This document shows positions 451 through 19,767 of a stretch of 64,000 nucleotides of DNA, piece after piece. Numbering within the stretch: the first letter of the stretch is position 1; each line of letters opens with the position of its first letter. The translations under genes and the position numbers were made by a program. The DNA comes from a virus. Under the pieces are notes generated by a model that was not told the origin of the DNA, searched no databases, and was given only the letters and a program-made list of their open reading frames with translations. Where the stretch lies: positions 18,604-82,603 of the IMG/VR virus record IMGVR_UViG_3300034283_001913. One strand, given 5' to 3'.

Positions 451-1467
451 ATGAGTAACTTTATCATGACAGAGCTCCCTACGCTTTCAGAGCAAGGGAA
501 TGTTTCAATTAAACCGTTCTTTGACCCTAATGTGGATAATCTAGGTTTGCAGAACTATGGCTTATCTCTTTTCGATGGAGTATTCCACGAAGAGCAACTT
601 GCTTGCATAGAGCAAAATGGTACAAAAAGGTATATCACCGGTTTGAATCCTTTTGCTCCAGAAGTAAAACTTCTTCCTCAAGAACTTCGTGAGGCTCGGA
701 TTAAAGAGATTAACAAAATAGTTTCACAGCTAGAGGCTGAGCTTAATGCTAATATTCTTGATCCTAACGATCCGGATTTTTGGAATAAGGTAAAGCTTCT
801 GCGTCCTGATAACTATGAGTTTTGGGAAAAGATCTCAATTCGCTGTGGTAATCAGCCGGTTCCTCTTGATCCGTCGAAAAATCCTTTTGATTTGATCAAG
901 TTATATGCTGTTGAAGCTGGAGGATTCTCAATTGTAGCAAAGAGCTACGAAGATGCGAGAAGTCGTCCGGTGTCACCAAAGTTCTACCTCGATAAATCTA
1001 TCAACACTATTGCTAGCAAAACAGAGATCAAAAAGCTTAAGAACAAAGCTCTTGTTGAACTTGAAGGTTTATTCCGTTCTAAACAGAATAAGCTTATGTA
1101 TGTAGCAAAAGTTGTAGACGGTAACAGTGTTCAATACAAGAAGTCTACACCTAATGATGTTATCTATGATAACATGGATAAGTTTATCAACGGTGAAGGT
1201 GTAGAAAGCAACATACGTCGTGCAGCTGAAACCTTTATTGATGCTGCCTCTTTAGATATCGAAACTCTTAAGCTTAAAGCTCTTGTGAAAGATTCAACTT
1301 TCTACAAGTTGATTTCACCTAAAGGTGACGGCATGATTTACCACTTAGCTACAAACAGTATTATGGGCCGTAATCCATCAGAGTGTTTGGAGTTTTTGAA
1401 GAATCCTTTAAATGATAAAATCCTCGAAGATCTTCTTAAGATTGTAGAGGCTAACTGGAAAAAATAA
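451..1467 (+). CDS. Virion-associated protein of unknown function (338 aa)
   Basis: I do not recognise a domain. The protein is soluble and mixed alpha/beta. The N-terminal third is rich in Pro and Asn. A charged helical stretch follows (around residues 85-110), and the C-terminal part looks mostly helical and lysine-rich. It has no signal peptide or membrane segment. Its position directly after the capsid gene and before the small basic proteins and ring genes suggests a head or head-assembly role, but that is inference from context alone. The start is ATG at 451, about 160 bases after the capsid stop. The next gene starts 11 bases after its TAA. Confidence 0.85.
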   Translation: MSNFIMTELPTLSEQGNVSIKPFFDPNVDNLGLQNYGLSLFDGVFHEEQLACIEQNGTKRYITGLNPFAPEVKLLPQELREARIKEINKIVSQLEAELNANILDPNDPDFWNKVKLLRPDNYEFWEKISIRCGNQPVPLDPSKNPFDLIKLYAVEAGGFSIVAKSYEDARSRPVSPKFYLDKSINTIASKTEIKKLKNKALVELEGLFRSKQNKLMYVAKVVDGNSVQYKKSTPNDVIYDNMDKFINGEGVESNIRRAAETFIDAASLDIETLKLKALVKDSTFYKLISPKGDGMIYHLATNSIMGRNPSECLEFLKNPLNDKILEDLLKIVEANWKK

Positions 1468-1478
1468 AACATCATACC

Positions 1479-1664
1479 ATGGCTAAAAATCAAGCAGGCG
1501 TTGGAGGGGTAAAGAACCCTAACACCGTATTCACAGAAGTAGTGAAGAATCCTACCCGTTATAAGGGCGGCATGAACACTTGTCCTGAAGTTGTTAAAAA
1601 CCCTACTCGTTATACAGGCGGTCTGAATCAGGCAGCTTGTGACGTTCCTAAAAAAGGTAAGTAA
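1479..1664 (+). CDS. Small basic protein with two 17-residue repeats
   Basis: This 61-residue protein starts MAK and ends in KKGK. It holds two copies of a 17-residue unit, EVVKNPTRYKGG... and EVVKNPTRYTGG..., starting at bases 1536 and 1587. A partial third copy (GVKNPN) lies before them. The two DNA copies differ mostly at third codon positions, which points to selection on the peptide. It is the first of a run of very short lysine-rich genes, and its stop overlaps the next start (TAATG). Function is unknown. A nucleic-acid-binding or packaged peptide is plausible from charge and position. Confidence 0.75.
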   Translation: MAKNQAGVGGVKNPNTVFTEVVKNPTRYKGGMNTCPEVVKNPTRYTGGLNQAACDVPKKGK

Positions 1665-1843
1665 TGGCAAAGAAATCTAGTAAACCCGGACCTAATAAGG
1701 TAAACATGAAGACTGTAGGTAAAACTACAGCTTTAGTTACAAACTATGGTAAGAACTACAAAGGACCTCAGCCTAATAAGTCTAGAACAGGAAAACCTGC
1801 TCCAGCTTTCAAAAAAGGCGGAACGCTTAAGAAAAAGAAATAA
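1664..1843 (+). CDS. Small lysine-rich basic protein (59 aa)
   Basis: The start ATG overlaps the previous stop by one base. The 59-residue product begins MAKKSSKPG and ends FKKGGTLKKKK, with almost no acidic residues. It carries the KKGG motif found in several neighbours and in the large cargo protein at 19764. The frame, the coupling and the shared start and end style support a real gene despite its size. I recognise no family. A role in neutralising or condensing packaged DNA is inference. Confidence 0.7.
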   Translation: MAKKSSKPGPNKVNMKTVGKTTALVTNYGKNYKGPQPNKSRTGKPAPAFKKGGTLKKKK

Positions 1844-1845
1844 CT

Positions 1846-1974
1846 GTGGCAAAACAACAAACTAAGGTATCTTCATCAAAAACAGTTTTTGGTAAGAGAA
1901 GAGTAGGTAAAGCTAAAAAGCGTAAATCGCCTAAGGATAAACTTACTAAACCTTATATTGGACAAGGAAAGTAA
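1846..1974 (+). CDS. Very small basic protein with GTG start (42 aa)
   Basis: The 42-residue frame begins with GTG at 1846, two bases after the previous TAA, and reads MAKQQTKVSSSK at the start, the same MAK opening as its neighbours. Its centre, GKRRVGKAKKRK, is strongly cationic, and it has almost no acidic residues. The lack of an ATG makes it easy to miss. The packing between its neighbours and the conserved opening support it. Confidence 0.65.
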   Translation: MAKQQTKVSSSKTVFGKRRVGKAKKRKSPKDKLTKPYIGQGK

Positions 1975-1978
1975 AACT

Positions 1979-2131
1979 ATGGCAGCCAAAGATAAAAAGT
2001 GGATACAAAAAGCAGTGAATCCTAAACATAAGGGTTACTGCACCCCTATGTCTAAGCCGACATGTACACCAAAAAGAAAGGCTCTTGCCAGAACTTTTAA
2101 AGCAATGGCTAAAGCTAGAAAAGGAAAATAA
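1979..2131 (+). CDS. Small basic protein with two cysteines (50 aa)
   Basis: This 50-residue frame runs from ATG 1979 to TAA 2131 and opens MAAKDKKWIQKAVNPKHKG. It has two cysteines eight residues apart in the middle (GYCTP...PTCTP) and a basic helical tail ending KARKGK. Genes with this WIQKAVNPKHKG-type opening occur in large DNA phages as short uncharacterised proteins, by my recollection. It sits in the tightly packed basic cluster, four bases after one gene and two before the next. Confidence 0.7.
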   Translation: MAAKDKKWIQKAVNPKHKGYCTPMSKPTCTPKRKALARTFKAMAKARKGK

Positions 2132-2133
2132 CC

Positions 2134-2322
2134 ATGGCTAAAACTAAAAGCAAAGTAAACCAAGCAGGAGTCTATACCAAACCAGGTATGAGAAAATCTT
2201 TGTTCAACAAGATTAAAGCTGGTTCTAAAGGCGGAGATCCCGGCGAATGGTCTGCTCGTAAAGCTCAGTTACTTGCTAAAGAGTACAAGTCAAAAGGTGG
2301 AGGATACAAAACCAAGAAGTAA
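2134..2322 (+). CDS. DUF5872-like small basic protein
   Basis: The 62-residue product contains YTKPGMRKSLFNKIKAGSKGG followed by a PGEWSARKAQLLAKEY segment and a C-terminal GGGYK. This matches my memory of the DUF5872 type, a short domain seen in phages and large eukaryotic viruses with the consensus KPG-R...I..GSKGG.PGQWSARKAQL. Its biochemical role is not established. It is lysine-rich like its neighbours and shares a TAATG junction with the next gene. Confidence 0.75.
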   Translation: MAKTKSKVNQAGVYTKPGMRKSLFNKIKAGSKGGDPGEWSARKAQLLAKEYKSKGGGYKTKK

Positions 2323-2588
2323 TGGCAAAGAATCCTCAGCAAAGTCTTAGAGACTGGACAGATCAAAAGTGGATGACTTCTGGCACTTATGCTAATAAGA
2401 AGAAGGGATCATCTAAAGAAGTAAAGTCAAAGGGTAAGAAAAGATATCTTCCCGAATCAGCTTGGTCTTCTTTATCTGCCGGAGAAAAGGCTGCGACTAA
2501 TAAAGCAAAAGCTGAGGGTAATAGAAAAGGTAAACAGTTTGTTTCCCAACCAAAAAATATAAAGCAAAAAACTAAAAAACACAGATAA
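2322..2588 (+). CDS. Basic phage protein with DWTDQKW / RYLPE motifs (88 aa)
   Basis: The 88-residue product has an N-terminal SLRDWTDQKWMTSG, a central KKRYLPESAW, and a C-terminal GNRKGKQFVSQPKNI segment. I recognise this combination from short uncharacterised proteins of phages and giant viruses, where it often stands next to the family represented by the preceding gene. It is highly basic and has no cysteine. It overlaps both neighbours by one base at TAATG junctions, so the three genes are likely translated as a coupled set. Confidence 0.75.
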   Translation: MAKNPQQSLRDWTDQKWMTSGTYANKKKGSSKEVKSKGKKRYLPESAWSSLSAGEKAATNKAKAEGNRKGKQFVSQPKNIKQKTKKHR

Positions 2589-2746
2589 TGGCAAAGAACG
2601 CAAAACAACAAGCGGCAATAGCGATGTCTATGAAAGCTGTAGGTAAGAAGCCTAAGATGGCTAAAGGTGGTGCAGCAGGCACTGCTCTTAAGAATGCCTT
2701 GATTAAGGCAGGTTATAAAAAAGGCGGATCTACTAAGAAAAAGTAA
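2588..2746 (+). CDS. Small lysine-rich basic protein with KGG motifs (52 aa)
   Basis: A 52-residue frame from ATG 2588 to TAA 2746 opens MAKNAKQQAAIAMSMKAVGKK and closes AGYKKGGSTKKK. It has two GG motifs preceded by lysine (MAKGG, YKKGG). Both ends are TAATG junctions with the flanking genes. No acidic residue is present. I know no family for it. It most resembles the product of 1664-1843 in composition and tail. Confidence 0.7.
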   Translation: MAKNAKQQAAIAMSMKAVGKKPKMAKGGAAGTALKNALIKAGYKKGGSTKKK

Positions 2747-3000
2747 TGGCAAAGTCACCAGCTTGGCAGCGCAAAGAAGGCAAGTCTCCTAGTGGAGGAC
2801 TCAATGCTAAAGGTAGAGCTTCTTATAACAGAGCTAACCCTGGTAAACCTGGGCTTAAAGCTCCACAACCTGAAGGTGGTTCTAGAAAGAAATCTTTCTG
2901 TGCCCGAATGTCAGGTATGAAGAAGAAGCTTACTAGCAGTAAGACAGCTAATGATCCCAATAGCCGGATCAATAAAGCGCTGCGTAAATGGAAATGTTAA
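2746..3000 (+). CDS. DUF6321-like basic protein
   Basis: The 84-residue product reads AWQRKEGKSPSGGLNAKGR near the N terminus, then a Pro/Gly linker, then SFCARMSGMKKK, and it ends NSRINKALRKWKC. I recognise this pattern as the DUF6321 type, carried by T4-like cyanophages and other aquatic phages. Two conserved cysteines are in SFCARM and at the C-terminal residue. Function is unknown. The high conservation of a short basic protein across unrelated phages suggests a defined structural or nucleic-acid role. It is the last of the coupled set, and the next gene starts 19 bases later. Confidence 0.8.
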   Translation: MAKSPAWQRKEGKSPSGGLNAKGRASYNRANPGKPGLKAPQPEGGSRKKSFCARMSGMKKKLTSSKTANDPNSRINKALRKWKC

Positions 3001-3019
3001 CCTTTAAATACTATAAACA

Positions 3020-3256
3020 ATGAAAAAAGTAACACCAAAAGCAAAAACCGGAAAGATGGTAAACCCTAATCCTACAGCTAAAGCGTCTCCTATGAAAAGC
3101 GGAGGAAAGGTTATGGCTAAAACAGGAAGAACTATTACTAAAGATCAGCCTCTGAATGCTCAAAATTCAGGTATGGCTAAGTACGGTAAGTCTATGACTA
3201 AAGCTATGTACGGCAAGTCTATGATGAAAAAGGGTGGTGCCAAAAAAGGCAAGTAA
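3020..3256 (+). CDS. Small basic Met/Lys/Gly-rich protein (78 aa)
   Basis: This 78-residue product is made largely of Lys, Met, Gly, Ala and Ser. It repeats a short unit YGKSM twice (KYGKSMTKAM, MYGKSMMKKGG) and ends AKKGK. It has MKSGG and MKKGG motifs. Only one acidic residue, an Asp, is visible. It closes the run of small cationic genes before the ring-type gene at 3265. The composition predicts an unstructured polycation. I do not recognise a family. Confidence 0.7.
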   Translation: MKKVTPKAKTGKMVNPNPTAKASPMKSGGKVMAKTGRTITKDQPLNAQNSGMAKYGKSMTKAMYGKSMMKKGGAKKGK

Positions 3257-3264
3257 TCTAAGAG

Positions 3265-3969
3265 ATGGATAATAATACCATATATCTAAAGATTAAGCAA
3301 CGTCTTAACAAACTTGCTAGCAACGACTATGATAACATAGAGTGCTGGCAAGTTGTTGAGGCTTTTAATAAGGGCCAGGTAGAATGGTGCCGTAGAAACC
3401 TTCATGGCACAAATCTTAAGCAAGAAGGGGATGAGCAATCTAAACGCCGGATAGATGATTTGCAGAAGCTGCTTATTAGCGTTCCTGTAGTATTATCAGA
3501 TGCCCAGCTTTATTTCGAAACCCCCGATATTCCTGCTGATTATTTAGAGTGGAAAAGAATCTCGGCTTATGCCAAAAATGATTGTTGCCCTAAAGGCCGG
3601 CGGATGGTTATTTACCTCGCTGAAGAAGGCAACGTAGATGAATTACTCCGAGATAAAAACAAACAACCTAGTTTTGAGTGGGCAGAAACTTTCTGTACTA
3701 TTATCAACAACCGGGTGCGTATTTATACCAATAATAAATTTTCGGTAGAAGATGTAGAACTTTCATATTACCGTCAACCGGTAAGAATCCAAATAGCTAA
3801 CTGTGTGGACCCGTATACACAGCAAGTAAGCCTTGTCAATGTAGAATGTGAGTTTAAAGATGATCTTGTAGAGGTGCTCATTGATGAAGCGGTAAAAATC
3901 ATAGCGGGAGATATTGAGTCAATAAATCAGATGCAGCGTGCTTCGCAGTCTGTAGAACAGAATAACTAA
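3265..3969 (+). CDS. Probable portal-proximal ring / tail tubular protein (234 aa)
   Basis: The protein has an N-terminal helical part (residues 1-75), a beta-rich middle, and a C-terminal helix with DDLVEVLIDEAVKIIAGDIES. This layout (helical base, beta insertion, helical end with a conserved VELSYYRQP strand before it) resembles the T7 gp11 / P22 gp4 tail tubular fold used for ring proteins in crAss-like phages. Two other genes in the window (12972 and 13640) share the layout. It would assemble as a 12-mer below the portal. The identification rests on pattern, not on a catalytic motif. The ferritin gene starts two bases after its stop. Confidence 0.5.
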   Translation: MDNNTIYLKIKQRLNKLASNDYDNIECWQVVEAFNKGQVEWCRRNLHGTNLKQEGDEQSKRRIDDLQKLLISVPVVLSDAQLYFETPDIPADYLEWKRISAYAKNDCCPKGRRMVIYLAEEGNVDELLRDKNKQPSFEWAETFCTIINNRVRIYTNNKFSVEDVELSYYRQPVRIQIANCVDPYTQQVSLVNVECEFKDDLVEVLIDEAVKIIAGDIESINQMQRASQSVEQNN

Positions 3970-3971
3970 CA

Positions 3972-4562
3972 ATGGAAAAGCCCGGAAATATCCTAAAGCG
4001 TAGTCTAAAGACAGATAGTCCTGCCGCTCAACAGACTATACAAAAAAAACCTTCTGTTAAAAAACATAATCCTCTTATCAGTGATCACTGTATAGAGTAT
4101 TTGAATTACAGGATTGAACAAGAAGAATATTCTGGCAGAATATATCTTGCTATGTCTATGTGGTTGAATGATAATGGATATCTCAATGCGGCTAAGCTAT
4201 GGAAGAAGTATTCTGATGAAGAAATGCTTCATGCTAACGATGCTAGAGAATATCTTTTAGCTATGGGCGTACAGCCTCTGACTCCTAAGTTAGATGCTCC
4301 TAATCAGTCTTTTACAGGACTTCCTGATATTATCCAGAGATCTTATGAACATGAGATCGAGGTTACTACTCAGATTAAAGACTTATCGACAGAAGCTCTT
4401 AAAAAAGGTGATCATATGCTTTATCAGTTAGGTTTGGCTTACTTAAAAGAACAAGTAGAAGAGCATGGAAAGATGCAAGATCTCATGGATCAGATTGAAT
4501 CTTTTGGTACAGATAAGATAGCTATGCGTCTTTTTGACCACGAGCTGAAAGATTACCTCTAA
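3972..4562 (+). CDS. Ferritin with complete ferroxidase centre and basic N-terminal extension
   Basis: Residues 38-196 follow bacterial ferritin (FtnA) along the whole four-helix bundle. The metal ligands are all present: E52 in helix A (EEYSG), E83, E84 and H87 in helix B (EEMLH), E128 in helix C (YEHE), and E160, E163 and E164 in helix D (EQVEE). The C terminus DKIAMRLFDHELKDYL matches the short helix E. Known role: it oxidises Fe(II) and stores Fe(III) in a 24-subunit shell. Unlike FtnA it has about 35 extra N-terminal residues that are rich in Lys and lack helix signals, similar to DNA-binding tails of Dps proteins. It sits inside the virion block, two bases after a ring-type gene. Whether it is packaged, attached to the particle or acts in the infected cell cannot be told from sequence. 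Confidence 0.92.
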   Translation: MEKPGNILKRSLKTDSPAAQQTIQKKPSVKKHNPLISDHCIEYLNYRIEQEEYSGRIYLAMSMWLNDNGYLNAAKLWKKYSDEEMLHANDAREYLLAMGVQPLTPKLDAPNQSFTGLPDIIQRSYEHEIEVTTQIKDLSTEALKKGDHMLYQLGLAYLKEQVEEHGKMQDLMDQIESFGTDKIAMRLFDHELKDYL

Positions 4563-4648: not shown

Positions 4649-6253
4649 ATGGCTTATTTTAACCACGCCTTTACCAAGATGTTCTTAGGAACTCAGGTAA
4701 CCGGATCAGGGGCCGGTCAAAACCCTAACACAAATCTTAGTGATGGTTTTATTATTACTTCTGGTATTCCAACCTCTGCGTTGGCTAATACTACAGGTAC
4801 AGTAAACAGTATCTATGGACCAGGGTCTTATGGATTCTTTGACGCAACTACTTATTTATCTGTTACAGAATCAGATATTACAGGATGTTGCCCATTGATT
4901 CTTGCGTCTGCTTCTCTTTTGTCTAAAGACAAAATCGGACCTTTCCACGGTGGATACAAAGAATCTAACAAGTCTAAGGTTATCAATCCTCGTTATGTAA
5001 CTAAAGCTTACGTAGTAGAGGAGTGTGCTCCTCAGCAGTCTATTACTTCTATTGGTAATACTGCTTACACTAGCACTTTGGTTACAGCTATGTCTGTAAC
5101 AATTACTGACGGCGGCACCGGATATACTCCAGGTACTTATACAAACGTTCCTTTTACCACATCAGGATCAGGTGTAGGTGTTTTGGCAACAGTTGTTGTT
5201 TCCGCTGGTGGAGTAATCACTAGTGTAGTAATTACTAACTTCGGTTACGGATATGTGTCAACAGACACAATTACTCCAAATGATACAGCTTATCCAGCTA
5301 TCGGTACTCCAACTGATGATGCAATTATTACTCTTACAGTAACAGGTGCTCCTGCAAACTGCTGCTATGAGTTCCTTTGCGGAGAAACTTACTACTTGCG
5401 TATCGATCTTAAAGGGTCTCCGGTTTTGCGTTATCTTAACCACAATGCTTATCAGACTCTTTCAGCTTACACTGGATGCTGCTCTGGTCCAACTCCAACT
5501 GCAGTAGATTCTACTTTGGTTATGATTGAGTGGGGTAAAGCATTAGTTATTAACCAGTATCTTACACCTTTTGTTCTTCCAGTTGTATTTGATGAATCAG
5601 GTGTAGCTTGGTTCCCTCCAGGAACTACTGTAGATCCTACAACAGGAGCTCCGGTAACTTCGGCTCAGTGGTGGGATGCTTATGTATCTCCAGGTCACAC
5701 TCCAGGTGAGTGCGCAGGTTTGCGTTTATTTGGTGCTTATGTAGAGACTAAGTTTGGTAACTGTTCTTTCCAGCTTACTGACTTCTTCGAAAAAGAGCCT
5801 GTGTTGATTTACGCTTCTCTTGTTGATTATAACGGAGATCCTTGCGTATTCGAAAGCATCTGCGTTTATCGCGAGTGTACAGGTCTTCAAGGAATGGGCT
5901 TTGGTGAGCAAGTTGTTCGTGATTTGATTCTTGCTGAATCTTATCTGCAGAACTTCTTCCACACTGATATCCGTATTCGTGAAATCACTCAAGGTGATCA
6001 GATTTTGAATAGTGTAAACCGTAACGCATTATATACTCGTTACTACCTCTTGCACAGTGTTCCTCGTCTGAACAATCCTACCGGTGTATTTGATAACGAT
6101 CAGTACATGTTGGAAATTATTTCTACAGGTCGTAACACTGATTTGGAAGACTTCTTGAATACTTGGTTAGAAGCTTGCGCAGGTTGTGTACCATTTGAAG
6201 TAAACTCTTGTGTACCTTGCGTAGTTGTTCCTAACTTCGAACCAGTAGGTTAA
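4649..6253 (+). CDS. Abundant virion structural protein with inserted beta domain (534 aa)
   Basis: The N terminus reads MAYFNHAFTKMFLGTQ, and the C-terminal third is mixed helix and strand (AESYLQNFFHTDIRIREI). Residues about 145-225 hold an inserted beta-rich module with GGTGYTPG...YGYVSTD repeats. The same type of module is seen in the 314-aa protein at 11295. Cys pairs (CC at four places, CxxC near the C terminus) are frequent. The gene has its own promoter and a strong terminator, and uses expressed-gene codons, so it is likely a high-copy virion protein such as a head decoration, head fibre or tail component. It has no signal peptide or membrane segment. I cannot assign it to a named family. 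Confidence 0.75.
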   Translation: MAYFNHAFTKMFLGTQVTGSGAGQNPNTNLSDGFIITSGIPTSALANTTGTVNSIYGPGSYGFFDATTYLSVTESDITGCCPLILASASLLSKDKIGPFHGGYKESNKSKVINPRYVTKAYVVEECAPQQSITSIGNTAYTSTLVTAMSVTITDGGTGYTPGTYTNVPFTTSGSGVGVLATVVVSAGGVITSVVITNFGYGYVSTDTITPNDTAYPAIGTPTDDAIITLTVTGAPANCCYEFLCGETYYLRIDLKGSPVLRYLNHNAYQTLSAYTGCCSGPTPTAVDSTLVMIEWGKALVINQYLTPFVLPVVFDESGVAWFPPGTTVDPTTGAPVTSAQWWDAYVSPGHTPGECAGLRLFGAYVETKFGNCSFQLTDFFEKEPVLIYASLVDYNGDPCVFESICVYRECTGLQGMGFGEQVVRDLILAESYLQNFFHTDIRIREITQGDQILNSVNRNALYTRYYLLHSVPRLNNPTGVFDNDQYMLEIISTGRNTDLEDFLNTWLEACAGCVPFEVNSCVPCVVVPNFEPVG

Positions 6254-12971: not shown

Positions 12972-13640
12972 ATGATTACAGTAGGCGACAGCATCTCACG
13001 AGTACGTAATGTGCTTAAAGCTGTTAAGGAAGATCCTTTCTTGACAGATAGATTTATAGCTAGTATTATTCTTAAATATGCTAAGCTATTGATTAAGCGT
13101 CAAGATGATGCTAATAAAATCATGCGCTTTCAAAGCTTGTTTGATGTTTTGCCTTGTGTAGATCTTATTGAAATAGATAGAGTAGAAGCTTGCTGTGGAC
13201 CAATCAGATCCAAGTGTATTATTAAGCGTACTAAAGAGCGCTTACCTCAAATACTAGAGGGAACATACGGACCTCTTTTCAGATCTGTTACATCGATTGA
13301 TGGATCTGTAGAGCTTTTCAAAACTTATCCGGCTACATATACCGCGATGAGTAACACTACTAATTTTAAGTATAACAAGACAAAATACTTCTGGTATCTT
13401 AACGGTTATCTATACTTTCCAAATATTGAGTGGGATGCTATTCGTATCGAAGCTTTATGGGACGGGGATGTAGAATATTTTAAGTGTGATGTTGACCCTT
13501 GTCTTCCTATTCAAGATCAATCATTCAGAATACCAGAATACTTGTTTGCTGAAATAGAGCAGATGGCTCTTAAGGAAATACTTACTACTGGTCAGATTCC
13601 ATCGGATGGTGCTGATAACCAGCAAAACATTCTTAGATAA
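12972..13640 (+). CDS. Probable ring protein / tail tubular protein (222 aa)
   Basis: The N terminus is helical (VRNVLKAVKEDPFLTDRFIASIILKYAKLLIKR), followed by a beta-rich middle with a Cys cluster (EACCGPIRSKC). A late strand and helix (IRIEALWDGDVEYF, then FAEIEQMALKEIL) match the T7 gp11-like layout. It would form one of the stacked rings between portal and muzzle. It begins one base after the IHF-like gene and overlaps the next start at TAATG, consistent with coupled production of complex partners. Confidence 0.55.
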   Translation: MITVGDSISRVRNVLKAVKEDPFLTDRFIASIILKYAKLLIKRQDDANKIMRFQSLFDVLPCVDLIEIDRVEACCGPIRSKCIIKRTKERLPQILEGTYGPLFRSVTSIDGSVELFKTYPATYTAMSNTTNFKYNKTKYFWYLNGYLYFPNIEWDAIRIEALWDGDVEYFKCDVDPCLPIQDQSFRIPEYLFAEIEQMALKEILTTGQIPSDGADNQQNILR

Positions 13641-14686
13641 TGAGCTACAATTATACACTCAAATATAGAACCTTCGAGCAGCTTCTTAGCGAAGTGCTTG
13701 TAGATTTTCAGAACTATAATCTGGAAGCTTATATTGAACCTCATCAGCTAATCAAAGTAGCCAAAAGAGTTAACTATGATTTGGGGCTGAGAATCTTTAT
13801 GACGAAAGAAGCAGTTCTCGAAGTAGAGAAAGGACGTGTAAAACTTCCTGATGATTTCTTTGTCTTAAACTTTGCACTCATCTGTGATGAGGTTACAGTT
13901 CACCAAGGCATGCCGCAGGGAACCTGGATAGAAGAAAGACCTTACGTTCCTTTTTATAGAGAACAACCTGCTGTTATAGATCCTTGTACAGCTCCTGTAG
14001 TTAATTGTCAAGTTTGTCAGCAACCTTCTTGTACTTGCCAAACAGCTTGCAATATAGATGGAGAGTGCACCGGATCTTTTAATCCACAAGCTCCTTACGG
14101 TAACTATTGTAATAAACCACGGGTTTATCTTAATTGTAAAGACGAGTGCTACGAACTGGTACAGATTGTAAAAACTGAGACAAGAACATACAAGCGTCTT
14201 ATTCCGATTAAGATAATTAACAATGCTCAATCTATAGATTGTGATTGTCCTAATCTTTATTGGGATACTCCTAATATGGCTTGGATAAAAGACAATTACC
14301 TTTATACCACTTTAGACTGTGCTAAGATCTATATCAATTATCAAGGCATGTTAGAAGATGAGGAAGGTAATCTTATGGTACCTGATCATGATATGATCAA
14401 TGAGTATTATGAGTATGCTATGAAGCAACGTATCCTAGAAAATCTTATCATGAACGATGAGCCTCAAGCTGCGCAAAAACTTCAGCTTGTTGAAACAAGA
14501 TACAGAGCGGCAAGAAACTATGCTTTGAGTATTGTGAATACACCAAACTGGTCAGAGATGAAACAGCTTTGGGAAATGAATCGTAGAGCACAATACGCTA
14601 AGTATTATAATATGTTCAAGAGCTATCCATGGAACCAATGGTTCCCGGGTAATCTGGGTGTGGTATCTACTAATAAAGGAAGATAA
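13640..14686 (+). CDS. Probable ring protein with Cys-rich insertion (348 aa)
   Basis: Residues 1-90 are helical then strand (FEQLLSEVLVDFQNYNL, VELPDDF-type turn), like the tail tubular fold. Residues 115-150 are a Cys-rich insertion (CQVCQQPSCTCQTAC). The C-terminal 130 residues are long helices (INEYYEYAMKQRILENLIM ... YRAARNYALSIV) ending in an aromatic tail with KSYPWNQWFPG. It precedes the muzzle gene, as ring 1 does in crAss-like phages. It joins both neighbours by one-base stop/start overlaps. The cysteines could bind metal or form disulfides outside the cell. Confidence 0.55.
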   Translation: MSYNYTLKYRTFEQLLSEVLVDFQNYNLEAYIEPHQLIKVAKRVNYDLGLRIFMTKEAVLEVEKGRVKLPDDFFVLNFALICDEVTVHQGMPQGTWIEERPYVPFYREQPAVIDPCTAPVVNCQVCQQPSCTCQTACNIDGECTGSFNPQAPYGNYCNKPRVYLNCKDECYELVQIVKTETRTYKRLIPIKIINNAQSIDCDCPNLYWDTPNMAWIKDNYLYTTLDCAKIYINYQGMLEDEEGNLMVPDHDMINEYYEYAMKQRILENLIMNDEPQAAQKLQLVETRYRAARNYALSIVNTPNWSEMKQLWEMNRRAQYAKYYNMFKSYPWNQWFPGNLGVVSTNKGR

Positions 14687-17600
14687 TGGCAGGTTTGCAA
14701 AATACATCTAGTCAAGATCCTCGTCGTTTTGACAAGGAGATGAATGAAGATATAAATGATTTTCATCTCTCGCCGGATTCTTGGACACAAGCTCGTAACG
14801 CTATCAATAACTCTAAAACAGGAGATATTGGTAAGATAGGTAATGAGCCGTCAAATCTTTTTTGTACAAAAGCTCCTTATCCTATAATCGGTGTAATACA
14901 TACTCAAGCTGATGAATGGGTTGTGTTTTCTACAGACGATGTAAATTCTGAGATAGGTACTTTCAAAGAGTCTAGCTGTACTTACACTACTTTAGTTAAT
15001 GATCCTTGTCTTGCTTTTGATAGAGCTAATCTTATCAAAGGAGTGTCTCGCCCTACCGGAGAATGTAGTTTCAAGGTATACTGGGATGATGGAAAAAATC
15101 CTTCTAGAGTTCTTGATTTAGAAAATATTCCTTGGATACAAGTTTGTACTGATGAGAATGGTGTAGTTATTCCTGGTCCTGCTGGCTATGATCCTGTTGG
15201 ATGTATTACATGTGTAGATACTACTAATCTTGATTGTGATAAAATACGGTTAGCAAGACTTGTTACACAACCTTGTATAACAGTACAAAAAGGTACAGGC
15301 GGAGGAACATTACCAAACGGTTCTTACTTTGCGGTAATAGCTTATACAATCGGGGGATCAAATACTGAAATAAGTAGTCAAAAAGTTACTGATTACTTTC
15401 CTCCGAGCAATCTTCAAAGTTTATTTGATCATGAAAATGTAGCTGGTTCTTTAGATATTATTATAGATTCTATTGATCCAGATTTTGATGAGTATGAGCT
15501 TGTTTTAGTATCAATTATTAATCAGCAAACTGTAGCTCGCCGAGTAGGTATTTATAGTACTCAGCAAAAGAGAGTTACTCTCGATATTATTGATTCTCGC
15601 TGGGTAAGTGTACCTATTGAAAACATTCCTATTCGTACTACAGTATTTGAAAGATCTGATGCGATGTTTTCTGTAAATGACTATTTGATCAGAACGGGAC
15701 CTCGTGCAAGATTTGATTTTAACTACCAGCCTTTAGCTAACCAGATTGTTACAAAATGGGTAGCTGTTGAGTATGATCAAGACTATTATAAGGATGGCGG
15801 ATCAAATACTGGTTATATGCGCGATGAAGTATATGCGTTCTTCATACGCTGGATATATGACACCGGTGATAAGTCTGCATCATATCATATTCCAGGAAGA
15901 CCAGCTTTTGCCGGAGAAAAGAATTTTCAGGTATCAGATGCTCTTCCTGAAGAAATATCAGGAGGCTTTAACTATAAGTGGGTAATAGAAAATACAGCTT
16001 CACAAATCGGCCCTCCAACAGCAATCCCTACAGCAGATGGCGGATTTCAGATTGCTGAAGGATACATGGGCTATTGGGAGTCTACTGAAGAATACCCTGA
16101 TAAAAAACCAGAGATTTGGAATGCCAATGATCCAGCGCATCCGTGGACAGCTCCTAACATAGTACCTTATCCAGGTACCAATCCTAATGCTAATGGTGAT
16201 TATGATCTCTGTGGAGAAAAGATTCGTCATCATCGTTTTCCAGATAGTATTTTGAACTTTACAAATGGTACAGCAAACCACTTTGTAGGTTCTTCTCCCA
16301 ATTTTAATGGTGATCCCGCGATACGGATAATGGGCGTAAAGTTTGAAAACGTGCGCCCACCCGTAGACAATCAGGGTAACATTATTTCTGGTGTTGTAGG
16401 ATTTGAAATCTTGCGTAGCACCCGTCAAGGGAATCGTACAGTTCTTGCTAAAGGTGTAGTATCCAATATGGGTGTCTACACTATTGAAGGCAACATTACA
16501 CCTCGCACCGGTTTATATCCTAACTATCCTTACAACGATCTTAATATAGATCCTTTCTTATCTGCTACAGAAACTAATGCGCCTGTTTGCAAAATAGATG
16601 GTTCTCCTACGGCTGCAGGAGATGGCTATACGCCAGTAGGAAGTTTTTCTAATACTATTTATAGTTTCCATTCCCCTGATACAAACTTTAGTAAACCTTT
16701 TTTATCAGGAAAAGAGTTTAAGATTTATGAAGAACTAAGAGGCACTGTTACAGGGAAGTTTGAGTTTTCTGAAAGACATCCTAAGACTAAGCTTATTTCT
16801 AATACAGCTTTTTATACATCAGTTATTGTAGGTATAGGTATAGCATCTGTGGCTATGAATGGGGAAAGAACCATTCGTAGAAACATGCCGTATCAAATCA
16901 TGACTCCTACGGATCTTATTACAAATGCTCCAGGAGTTGCTGCAGCAAACGCTGGTTATGGTGTTATGGCAACAGCCCTTGCTACCGCTAACGCTGCTGC
17001 TTGGGATGCTGGAGGAATTTTAGGTTTGAATGCTTTAGGATTTGGTCCAGGAACTTATTATGCAACTCTTGCGACTATTGGAGCTACTGCAGGAATTATT
17101 CCTGGATTAGCTGGATATAGTTATCAAATTGATCAAAAAGGAGGAGCAACTGAAGATATTCCTGTTCCGTTACTTATTGTTCAAGGTATCCCTACTTTTA
17201 TATCGTTTTGGTCGCAGGGGGTTGATTCAACACTAGATCTTATAAGATCTATTATTAAATATAGAGATTTTGCTCTTAAGTATAATTCTCATTGTTTGTA
17301 TGATTCTTTTGCTATTCCTCCAGTATCTGGTGATCGTCGTAGAAGTATTATCGAGCAAAGTTATCTTGGGCCGAACATTTTAGATTTTGGTAGCAACTAT
17401 CGAATCAACAATCTGTTTAGATCTACTACTGTAGCTTTACAAGTAAATTCTCCATTACCTTTTCCTGTAGGTGATAATACTCGTCAGCTTGCTACATCTC
17501 CTGTAGCCAATCTTATGGAACCATATGGATTGTTTAATAATCAAATGAGACTTATCAATCCAACAGCAAAAGCTTTCACTACAAATTCGGTTTGCTATTA

Positions 17601-19767
17601 CGTAGGCTATAAGCAAAGACTTCGTAATCAATATGGTCAAATAGAAGGTATAATTCAGGTTCCGGTATCAACTTGTTGGACAGATAAGAGTACTAAATCT
17701 ACTGCTGAAACAGTAACACTTTTTAATGGTGATATTTACTTAGCTAGATATACAGAAAAGAATACTTTCTTCTATTTCTACGATTGGTTGTATGATCAGC
17801 CGGATGGTTATGAGTTTAACTATCTAGAAAAGCGGATGCTTCCTTATCCTCGCTTTTGGCTCAATAGTCAAAAGTTTGAAGTACAGGATTCTATATCGGC
17901 GCTTACTGATTCAGTGACGTCGTTGTTTACACCTAGCGATCCAATTTGGGAACAGATTCCACCTAGTAGACAATTTTCTTTAGATGGATATTCTTGTCAT
18001 GGTATCCTTACTCTTCAAGGAAAAGGCTTTGCTGTAAAGTTTGCGTACTTTTATCTTTTCAACTCTGGAGTAAAAGATTTCTTTGTTGAGACAGAGATTA
18101 ACGTAGGCTTACGTGATTGGGGCGATATGGATTCTCAGAAACATTACCCTATCCTCGATGTCAAAGCTCTTTTTGATACTTCGATTATAAAAGCCGGTAA
18201 CTATTACAAATACGATATAAGTCTGGGCATTGGTAAAACGTATCTCAACTATGTTTCCTGGGGAGAAACACAACCTAGAATATATGATCCAAACCTAGCT
18301 GAAACTTGTTATCAGTATTATCCTACAAGAGTAATCTACTCTCTACCTGCACAACGTGAAGGCACAAGAGATAACTGGTACTTGTTTCTTGCCAACAACT
18401 ACTTTGATTTTAACAATAAAGTAAGTTGTATCAAACCGATTAATAAAAACGGTGCGGTAATCTTTTTCTATGCCGAAAGCCCTGTACAATTCTTAGGAGT
18501 AGACCAGCTTCAAACAGATGCTGGTACTAAGCTTACGATTGGTGATGGAGGATTGTTTAGTCAACCTATGCAGAGTCTTCTTAATGCTGACAAACCATAT
18601 CAGTATGGATCTTGTCAAGACAGACTTAGTGTAATCAATACTCCTCTAGGTATCTATTGGATTAACCAAGACCAAGGTAAAATCTTCACTATCAAAGGTG
18701 GTATAACAGAAATATCCGGCGAAGATTTGAGATGGTGGTTCCTTAACTATTTACCATACAAGCTTCTCGAGGCCTTCCCTAATTTTGAGTTAGTAGAAAA
18801 CCCAGTAATCGGTATAGGATGTCAATCTATCTACGACAACGAAAACCAGTTAGCGTATTTTACTAAGCGAGATTTTGTTGTAAAAAGAAGTCTTCCGGCT
18901 GGGACTACTATTACATATGTAAACAGGGATAACTTCCTTGTAAACAATATGCTTCCGATAAAGCTAGGCGATCCTGATTATTTTGAAGATGCATCCTGGA
19001 CCGTAAGTTTTGATCCTAAGCGAGGAGCTTGGATTAGCTGGCACGATTGGCATCCTAATCTTTTGATCCCAGGTAAAAATACTTTCCTGAGCGTTCTTAA
19101 TGATAATCCTAATCAGAATCAGGAGAATGGTATATGGATACATAATTACCGCTGTGACAGCTACTGTAACTATTACGGTATAGACTATCCTTTCGAGATA
19201 GAATATATGGTCAACACTGTGCAGAACGTAAACACATTGCGGTCGATTCAGTATCAGATGGAAGTATACAAATATGCTGATAACTGCTACGATCGATTCC
19301 ATGTGCTAGATTTTAACTTTGATGAAGCTGTTGTTTATAACACAGAACAGTGTTCAGGTCTTCTCAAGCTTAATCTTACACCTAAGAACAATGCTCCTTT
19401 GATCTTGAGCTATCCACAGGTTAACCCGACTAATATTGAGATCCTTTATTCTAAAGAAGAACAGAAGTATCGCTTCAATCAGTTTTGGGATATTACAGAT
19501 AGCAGAGGAGAGTTTCCGATTGGATCGGCTTATCCTCCTCCTACACCTAACGTAGGTTCGTATGCTGAGAGGATGATTTGGAACACAGAACCTAATGGTT
19601 ATGTTAGGATTCTTAATCCAAATAACTTAAATTATAGTAAAGATCCTCTGCAAAGAAAAAAGTTTAGACACTACGCAAATTTTGTATTTTTACGTAGAAA
19701 GGTGTCTGGCAATCGTAAGATCCTGGTACTCATTACAAACAACAAAAATCTTCTATCTCAGCGATGA
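14686..19767 (+). CDS. Tail stabilisation / muzzle protein (1,693 aa)
   Basis: The N terminus (MNEDINDFHLSPDSWTQARN, then an IGNEPSN and VVFSTDD segment) is the form I know from crAss-like muzzle proteins, related in role to P22 gp10 and T7 gp12. The bulk is beta-rich with propeller-like strands (YWDDGKNPSRVLDL, YWINQDQGKIFTIKGG). A Gly/Ala-rich stretch lies at about residues 748-808 after a short hydrophobic strand near 708, and may line or plug the channel. The length is in the range of known crAss-like muzzle proteins or a little longer. It starts by TAATG coupling to the ring gene, and its TGA overlaps the next ATG (ATGA). It closes the tail tip and opens for ejection (family knowledge). 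Confidence 0.75.
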   Translation: MAGLQNTSSQDPRRFDKEMNEDINDFHLSPDSWTQARNAINNSKTGDIGKIGNEPSNLFCTKAPYPIIGVIHTQADEWVVFSTDDVNSEIGTFKESSCTYTTLVNDPCLAFDRANLIKGVSRPTGECSFKVYWDDGKNPSRVLDLENIPWIQVCTDENGVVIPGPAGYDPVGCITCVDTTNLDCDKIRLARLVTQPCITVQKGTGGGTLPNGSYFAVIAYTIGGSNTEISSQKVTDYFPPSNLQSLFDHENVAGSLDIIIDSIDPDFDEYELVLVSIINQQTVARRVGIYSTQQKRVTLDIIDSRWVSVPIENIPIRTTVFERSDAMFSVNDYLIRTGPRARFDFNYQPLANQIVTKWVAVEYDQDYYKDGGSNTGYMRDEVYAFFIRWIYDTGDKSASYHIPGRPAFAGEKNFQVSDALPEEISGGFNYKWVIENTASQIGPPTAIPTADGGFQIAEGYMGYWESTEEYPDKKPEIWNANDPAHPWTAPNIVPYPGTNPNANGDYDLCGEKIRHHRFPDSILNFTNGTANHFVGSSPNFNGDPAIRIMGVKFENVRPPVDNQGNIISGVVGFEILRSTRQGNRTVLAKGVVSNMGVYTIEGNITPRTGLYPNYPYNDLNIDPFLSATETNAPVCKIDGSPTAAGDGYTPVGSFSNTIYSFHSPDTNFSKPFLSGKEFKIYEELRGTVTGKFEFSERHPKTKLISNTAFYTSVIVGIGIASVAMNGERTIRRNMPYQIMTPTDLITNAPGVAAANAGYGVMATALATANAAAWDAGGILGLNALGFGPGTYYATLATIGATAGIIPGLAGYSYQIDQKGGATEDIPVPLLIVQGIPTFISFWSQGVDSTLDLIRSIIKYRDFALKYNSHCLYDSFAIPPVSGDRRRSIIEQSYLGPNILDFGSNYRINNLFRSTTVALQVNSPLPFPVGDNTRQLATSPVANLMEPYGLFNNQMRLINPTAKAFTTNSVCYYVGYKQRLRNQYGQIEGIIQVPVSTCWTDKSTKSTAETVTLFNGDIYLARYTEKNTFFYFYDWLYDQPDGYEFNYLEKRMLPYPRFWLNSQKFEVQDSISALTDSVTSLFTPSDPIWEQIPPSRQFSLDGYSCHGILTLQGKGFAVKFAYFYLFNSGVKDFFVETEINVGLRDWGDMDSQKHYPILDVKALFDTSIIKAGNYYKYDISLGIGKTYLNYVSWGETQPRIYDPNLAETCYQYYPTRVIYSLPAQREGTRDNWYLFLANNYFDFNNKVSCIKPINKNGAVIFFYAESPVQFLGVDQLQTDAGTKLTIGDGGLFSQPMQSLLNADKPYQYGSCQDRLSVINTPLGIYWINQDQGKIFTIKGGITEISGEDLRWWFLNYLPYKLLEAFPNFELVENPVIGIGCQSIYDNENQLAYFTKRDFVVKRSLPAGTTITYVNRDNFLVNNMLPIKLGDPDYFEDASWTVSFDPKRGAWISWHDWHPNLLIPGKNTFLSVLNDNPNQNQENGIWIHNYRCDSYCNYYGIDYPFEIEYMVNTVQNVNTLRSIQYQMEVYKYADNCYDRFHVLDFNFDEAVVYNTEQCSGLLKLNLTPKNNAPLILSYPQVNPTNIEILYSKEEQKYRFNQFWDITDSRGEFPIGSAYPPPTPNVGSYAERMIWNTEPNGYVRILNPNNLNYSKDPLQRKKFRHYANFVFLRRKVSGNRKILVLITNNKNLLSQR

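Follow-up and report, generated by a model that had tools for sequence, protein, structure and literature searches.

In many environmental crAss-like phages, the junction between a gene for a tail-ring-type protein and the downstream gene p534 is a dedicated slot with two interchangeable occupants, an FtnA-type ferritin and a Dps-like protein. The two occupant families usually have a short N-terminal peptide in common, which varies with the phage lineage. Judged from sequence, this arrangement suggests a putative iron-oxidising protein as part of the particle or of its assembly.

The window, that is, the whole analysed stretch of 64,000 nucleotides (positions 18,604 to 82,603 of IMG/VR record IMGVR_UViG_3300034283_001913), is part of a virus record of 82,603 bases. 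Terminase (phrog_6681) and portal (phrog_6547) are encoded upstream of the window, and the major capsid gene spans its start (PF23898 Crass_capsid, 108.5 bits). Since a crassvirus capsid, ring proteins (Table 1) and crassvirus terminase and portal families were all found, the phage is crAss-like. Its host is probably a member of Bacteroidota, a flavobacterium, because relatives of the ring gene occur in Cellulophaga and Flavobacterium phages and the nearest cellular ferritins are flavobacterial. The ring-type protein that forms the left border of the slot is a probable homologue of the R3/R4 ring proteins. As the PDB gave no useful match to it, either by sequence or by profile, this assignment is based on PHROGs, gene order and the annotation of its homologues, a ring protein in csAssE-Sib and a virion structural protein in phi17:2. 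On the right border, p534 is the positional counterpart of the structural protein gp63 of phi17:2; beyond short partial matches, no homologues of known function were found for it. The ferritin ORF starts 2 nt behind the stop codon of the ring gene and ends 86 nt before the next virion gene. The ORF map thus bears out the position, between a ring-type protein and a structural gene, that was claimed in an earlier note made from the sequence alone. A promoter search of the slot region gave nothing above shuffled sequences. The Lys/Gly-rich small ORFs between p338 and the ring gene, which differ in number between relatives, are possibly DNA-condensing or assembly proteins. One of them, a basic DUF6321 protein of 84 aa (2746-3000), reaches 98% identity between phages in which the ferritins are 81% and the ring proteins 70% identical. 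Much longer phage protein families likewise match the DUF6321 domain at their C-terminal ends.

Table 1. Features of the window in and around the slot (positions are those of the window).
Feature	Position	Strand	Basis
p338, conserved protein between capsid and ring genes	451..1467	+	conserved order; position of crAss001 gp33
Five small Lys/Gly-rich ORFs, one with DUF6321	1479..3256	+	ORF cluster between p338 and ring gene
Tail-ring-type protein, 234 aa, left border of the slot	3265..3969	+	phrog_29507 virion structural protein; annotated homologues
FtnA-type ferritin with basic disordered N-terminal tail, 196 aa	3972..4562	+	PF00210, AlphaFold2, Foldseek, ligands
N-terminal peptide MEKPGNILKR, lineage tag common to both occupant families	3972..4001	+	motif statistics, lineage correlation, homology ends
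p534, right border of the slot, virion protein by position	4649..6253	+	weak partial PHROG virion matches; conserved order
CrAss_Ring_2 tail ring protein	12972..13640	+	PF25702, 76.7 bits
CrAss_Ring_1 tail ring protein	13640..14686	+	PF24228, 41.3 bits
Large virion structural protein, muzzle position	14686..19767	+	phrog_37948; order as crAss001 gp44

The product of the slot gene in the window matches PF00210 with 80.8 bits, the cut-off being 24.5 (Pfam profile search), and its best relatives in the PDB are bacterial FtnA proteins, with 3qz3 from V. cholerae at the top (E 1.7e-21). The AlphaFold2 model, for which an alignment of 27 phage proteins served as input, is a four-helix bundle with a short fifth helix (pLDDT 87.7), and Foldseek superposed it on 3qz3 with 1.2 A rmsd and a TM-score of 0.94 of the target. 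The Pfam match, the related FtnA structures and the predicted fold agree with the description of the gene in the earlier note as a complete ferritin; the prediction shows the ferritin fold and not a protein lacking the four-helix ferroxidase bundle. The extra N-terminal tail of about 35 residues, also described there, is real and mostly predicted to be disordered (pLDDT <50 at residues 8-23 of the AlphaFold2 model). With residue numbers transferred from E. coli FtnA by an ungapped offset of 34, we take sites A and B to be formed by E51 (E17 in E. coli FtnA), E84, H87, E128, Q161 and E164, and site C by E83, E160 and E163 with E164; Y58 and Q161 complete the set. None of the ten residues (E51, Y58, E83, E84, H87, E128, E160, Q161, E163 and E164) varies among the 57 distinct slot ferritins. 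Among the ligands listed earlier, E83, E84, H87, E128, E160, E163 and E164 thus stand, and E52 should be replaced by E51: residue 52 varies between E and D, with D in 12 of the 57.

A first scan of IMG/VR with the ferritin yielded 64 relatives, most of them with the order ring, ferritin, p534. Absence of the gene from all related phages, which would have pointed to an assembly chimera, is therefore not what is seen; the gene is kept at the same junction in most of the related crAss-like genomes. In a second scan with the ring protein, from which 80 loci were kept of at least 598 confirmed, most loci lacked ferritin, and in many of these another gene, of 134-172 aa, occupied its place. Altogether, 167 distinct complete junctions were collected from all fetched loci, and their counts are biased by the queries: 54 contain ferritin, 99 the alternative, Dps-like gene (98 of them alone, one together with a small ORF) and two both genes in tandem, while 11 are empty and one has a different occupant, a small basic ORF. 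Restriction to the ring-query loci (80 kept of at least 598 confirmed) leaves 40 junctions with the Dps-like gene, 7 with ferritin, 11 empty and one other. Ferritin and/or the Dps-like protein are thus present in 155 of the 156 occupied junctions. Nine records that have neither family at the junction were searched further: seven in which it is empty, a short fragment in which it is also empty, and L088, where a different small gene takes the place. Models of both families, each with positive controls, found no match elsewhere in these records, some of which are fragmentary. The slot enzyme is therefore accessory, and it is not essential, since some close relatives lack it entirely. No such gene is present at the corresponding junction of crAss001 (gp35/gp36), phi17:2 or csAssE-Sib, and the phage records searched yielded no Bacteroidota crAss-like isolate with the slot gene.

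The alternative occupant belongs to PF19174 (DUF5856), or phrog_858; all nine proteins searched scored 56-84 bits, where the cut-off is 34.6. Its AlphaFold2 model is a four-helix bundle, for which the best PDB matches in Foldseek are Dps proteins, with TM-scores of about 0.6-0.7 and a best E-value of only 3e-3. Residues H48, H60, D75 and E79, the counterparts of H51, H63, D78 and E82 of E. coli Dps, are invariant in 102 of 102 sequences. The counterpart of D67 (E. coli Dps numbering) is N or G in 100 of the 102 proteins, and the model, with four helices only, does not contain the B-C loop helix of Dps, which is why we call the protein Dps-like rather than Dps. Both slot families are under purifying selection, with a median dN/dS in close pairs of 0.10 for the ferritins and 0.13 for the Dps-like proteins. 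DUF5856/phrog_858 has matches in more than a thousand phage records. The family includes Sajous1 gp217, phiR1-37 g280 and rI.-1 of T4-type phages, and carries the label 'starvation-inducible transcriptional regulator'. The members compared from outside this clade share the invariant H, H, D and E with the slot proteins but have no N-terminal extension with the peptide, and no exchange with ferritin is known for them. In the unrelated podoviruses DSL-LC05 and ctNMl277, a gene of this family lies directly behind the portal gene (L349:3001-3363 and L350:3001-3363).

The N-terminal peptide takes several forms: MEKPGNILKR in the window, and MEKPRMLKR and MQKI-x-RP, each of which occurs in both families. 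The triplet LKR is found within the first 16 residues in 26 of 48 ferritin and 57 of 84 Dps-like representatives, and in at most 4 and 3, respectively, when the N-termini are shuffled. A wider motif, chosen post hoc from sequences already seen, is present in 44 of 58 ferritins (76%) and 83 of 102 Dps-like proteins (81%), versus 12 of 1,357 unclassified ORFs of the same loci; about one-fifth of the slot proteins do not have the motif as defined. Similarity between the peptides of ferritins and Dps-like proteins drops with the distance between the ring proteins (Spearman -0.38; lowest of 500 permutations -0.15), which ties the peptide to the phage lineage and not to the domain that follows it. 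Some of this lineage signal could have arisen because the peptide hitch-hikes with the ring gene next to it. That explanation fails for the tandem of L044, in which the ferritin and Dps-like genes start with the same lineage peptide (MQKIVRPTV and MQKIPRPSV), because the second gene of the tandem is not adjacent to the ring gene. In the phage ferritin L186, which is encoded outside the virion block, the motif is absent.

A broader reading of the peptide was rejected: it is not a general start of virion proteins, being found in none of 475 ring, p534 and p183 proteins and in 8 of 168 p338 proteins. We do not claim that large cargo genes share it, since LKR-like starts occur near the ferritin of L059 but the large downstream proteins of the window do not have them. 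The N-termini of the p338 family carry a conserved motif of the type IA[VI][KR]P[FY], in a loose form in 144 of 158, which somewhat resembles the slot peptide. A binding site shared by the two may be possible.

On a tree of 152 ring proteins, a quick tree built without bootstrap, the state of the slot changes at least 33 times, and even if only well-supported branches are counted, 11 changes each are required for ferritin and for the Dps-like gene. The ferritin of the window groups with that of L085, whereas its ring protein groups with those of other phages, which indicates transfer of slot genes from one lineage to another. DNA homology in five close pairs (L085/L087, L120/L315, L214/L318, L107/L245 and L218/L111) covers the ring gene, stops 26-45 nt into the slot gene and resumes near its end. 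As the homology ends just behind the peptide, the domains were exchanged while the tag stayed constant. For example, MENPSPNMLKRTLK precedes the ferritin in L085 and MEFPAPNMLKRTLK precedes the Dps-like domain in L087. In the ferritin tree, the slot ferritins make up a supported clade together with three ferritins encoded elsewhere; the stress-island ferritins of flavobacteria are positioned close outside it and canonical flavobacterial FtnA is far away. The nearest cellular relatives found are the stress-island ferritins of Lacinutrix, Winogradskyella and Maribacter, at 45-49% identity. Bacterial FtnA and stress-island ferritins have the same fold, site A/B/C ligands and core length as the slot ferritin, which differs from them in the extra LKR-type tail, the location in a virion operon and the separate phage clade. 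The closest flavobacterial ferritins (L150-L158) lie in a conserved neighbourhood that resembles a stress island, and they are distinct from the canonical FtnA of these bacteria.

Several observations bear on a location in the virion. Ferritins of the family are also encoded between the portal and crassvirus capsid genes (L051, L063, L232 and L238), behind the muzzle gene (L059 and L062) and between very large genes (L064). Together with the junction common to most relatives, the Dps-like exchange and the shared peptide, these sites support the virion-block setting proposed in the earlier note. A second two-family site was seen in a crassvirus contig, in which adjacent Dps-like and ferritin genes lie between portal and capsid (L025:7549-8513). 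Sajous1 gp217 (L353:4948-5301), a distant member of the Dps-like family (phrog_858, E 7e-44, and PF19174), was detected by mass spectrometry in CsCl-purified particles and modelled by the authors as a ferritin; according to them, low spectral counts cannot separate virion proteins from debris (PMC10892097). The record of phiR1-37 annotates g280 as 'phage structural protein'. Gene position, the tag and the detection of the distant Sajous1 homologue point to a putative virion location. Crassvirus particles have space for cargo, with several megadaltons of additional protein known from their heads and tails; the cargo proteins of crAss001 (gp45, gp46, gp47, gp49 and gp50) are ejection and RNA-polymerase proteins, unlike the slot enzymes (PMC10172136).

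The reading that we favour, with moderate confidence, is a peptide-docked ferroxidase, encoded in a virion-operon slot, that shields the virion or the DNA in it against iron and peroxide. The slot protein would combine a docking peptide (mostly LKR, or a form such as IxRP) with an iron-oxidising four-helix protein. FtnA forms a 24-mer cage and Dps a 12-mer cage, both with the N-termini outside. If the slot ferritins and Dps-like proteins form cages of this kind, many copies of the peptide would be displayed on the surface, because the N-termini would point outward, and could anchor the cage to the virion or to an assembly component. The enzyme would then oxidise Fe(II), consuming peroxide or oxygen near packaged or assembling phage DNA, and Fenton damage would be limited during late infection, lysis or the life of the particle. 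Three elements of this reading are inferred: the cages, their docking to the virion, and protection. Internal proteins of T4 are brought to the capsid by a short N-terminal capsid targeting sequence. The comparison is by function alone and implies no sequence relation: a short N-terminal peptide could bring different proteins to the particle. Whether the lineage-specific peptide is a virion-targeting tag, behind which two enzyme families are swapped like cartridges, and the particle carries an active anti-Fenton enzyme, we regard as evenly balanced. The suggestion of the earlier note that packaged DNA is protected from oxidation in the manner of Dps gains support, since the alternative occupant is itself Dps-like.

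The main rival is a late auxiliary enzyme acting free in the infected cell, in iron storage or in iron/peroxide detoxification, with its gene placed in the virion operon for late expression. Its tail, which is basic and disordered, would bind DNA or another cell component, as some Dps tails do. The accessory nature of the slot gene fits such an enzyme, and the phage Dps and Mn-catalase of other phages are read in this way in the relevant passages of PMC8008677 and PMC6669764. However, the strict virion-gene neighbours and a lineage-tied peptide across two unrelated families argue for a specific partner, and we hold a free enzyme to be rather unlikely. It is very doubtful that the four-helix bundle was co-opted as a structural part of the particle and carries out no iron chemistry. 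The gene does lie beside ring genes, and the Dps-like occupant has neither the usual Dps B-C helix nor the counterpart of the D67 ligand, but a purely structural role is disfavoured by the invariance of the ligands, namely the ten ferritin site residues, including site C, and the four Dps ligands in 102 sequences.

The earlier note had also raised an iron-bearing particle in the sense of the Ferrojan Horse, in which a ferritin iron core would aid entry via host iron uptake or deliver iron. A ferritin can hold an iron core and the slot is beside tail genes, yet the Dps-like protein fills the slot more often than ferritin, Dps-like proteins store much less iron, and close relatives have neither protein. 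Delivery by ferritin would moreover need unfolding, because a folded 24-mer would not pass the tail. The Ferrojan idea has already been published for a ferritin-like particle protein of Sajous1, although infection by this phage was independent of TonB and FeoB in the host tested (PMC10892097). Since that protein, gp217, belongs to DUF5856/phrog_858, the published proposal concerns the Dps-like family. The Dps-like exchange and the TonB/FeoB independence of Sajous1 disfavour iron delivery; the proposal thus found no specific support, and we consider it very improbable. The chance of an assembly chimera, or of a random insertion hot spot for host genes, is negligible. The gene did come from cells, and part of the clade lacks it, but census and trees exclude both: a single one of the 156 occupied junctions contains anything but the two families, the arrangement recurs with the same synteny in dozens of contigs, and the phage ferritins form their own supported clade with flavobacterial ferritins outside. 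The low dN/dS of the slot genes also speaks against a chimera or hot spot.

Dps and Mn-catalase genes, members of the ferritin superfamily, have been described in gut phages (Gratiaviridae and others; PMC8008677) and in Lactobacillus phages (PMC6669764) and were proposed, as here, to act against oxidative stress. In the relevant passages of these papers they are read as enzymes of the infected cell, with no shared tag or exchange described. Neither a ferritin in this crAss-like clade, nor the ferritin/Dps-like slot, nor the shared peptide turned up in the open-access literature, preprints excluded, and searches there for DUF5856 in phage and for Dps-like virion proteins gave no paper. Within that literature, the statement that ferritins are undescribed in crAss-like virions holds, but among the environmental phages of this clade the gene is common. 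The enzyme families are known, and it is their arrangement that we did not find described in these sources.

The crAss-like phages are very abundant in the human gut and occur also in water. If the favoured reading is true, two unusual things would come together in the slot: a phage particle equipped with an enzyme for chemical protection, and crAss-like phages with a targeting peptide. As a short tag, the slot peptide is a candidate for binding to a docking site on the particle. For DUF5856/phrog_858, now labelled a transcriptional regulator, a function with iron and peroxide is suggested. The question of whether phage particles contain iron or iron enzymes can thereby be put to a direct test on a defined gene.
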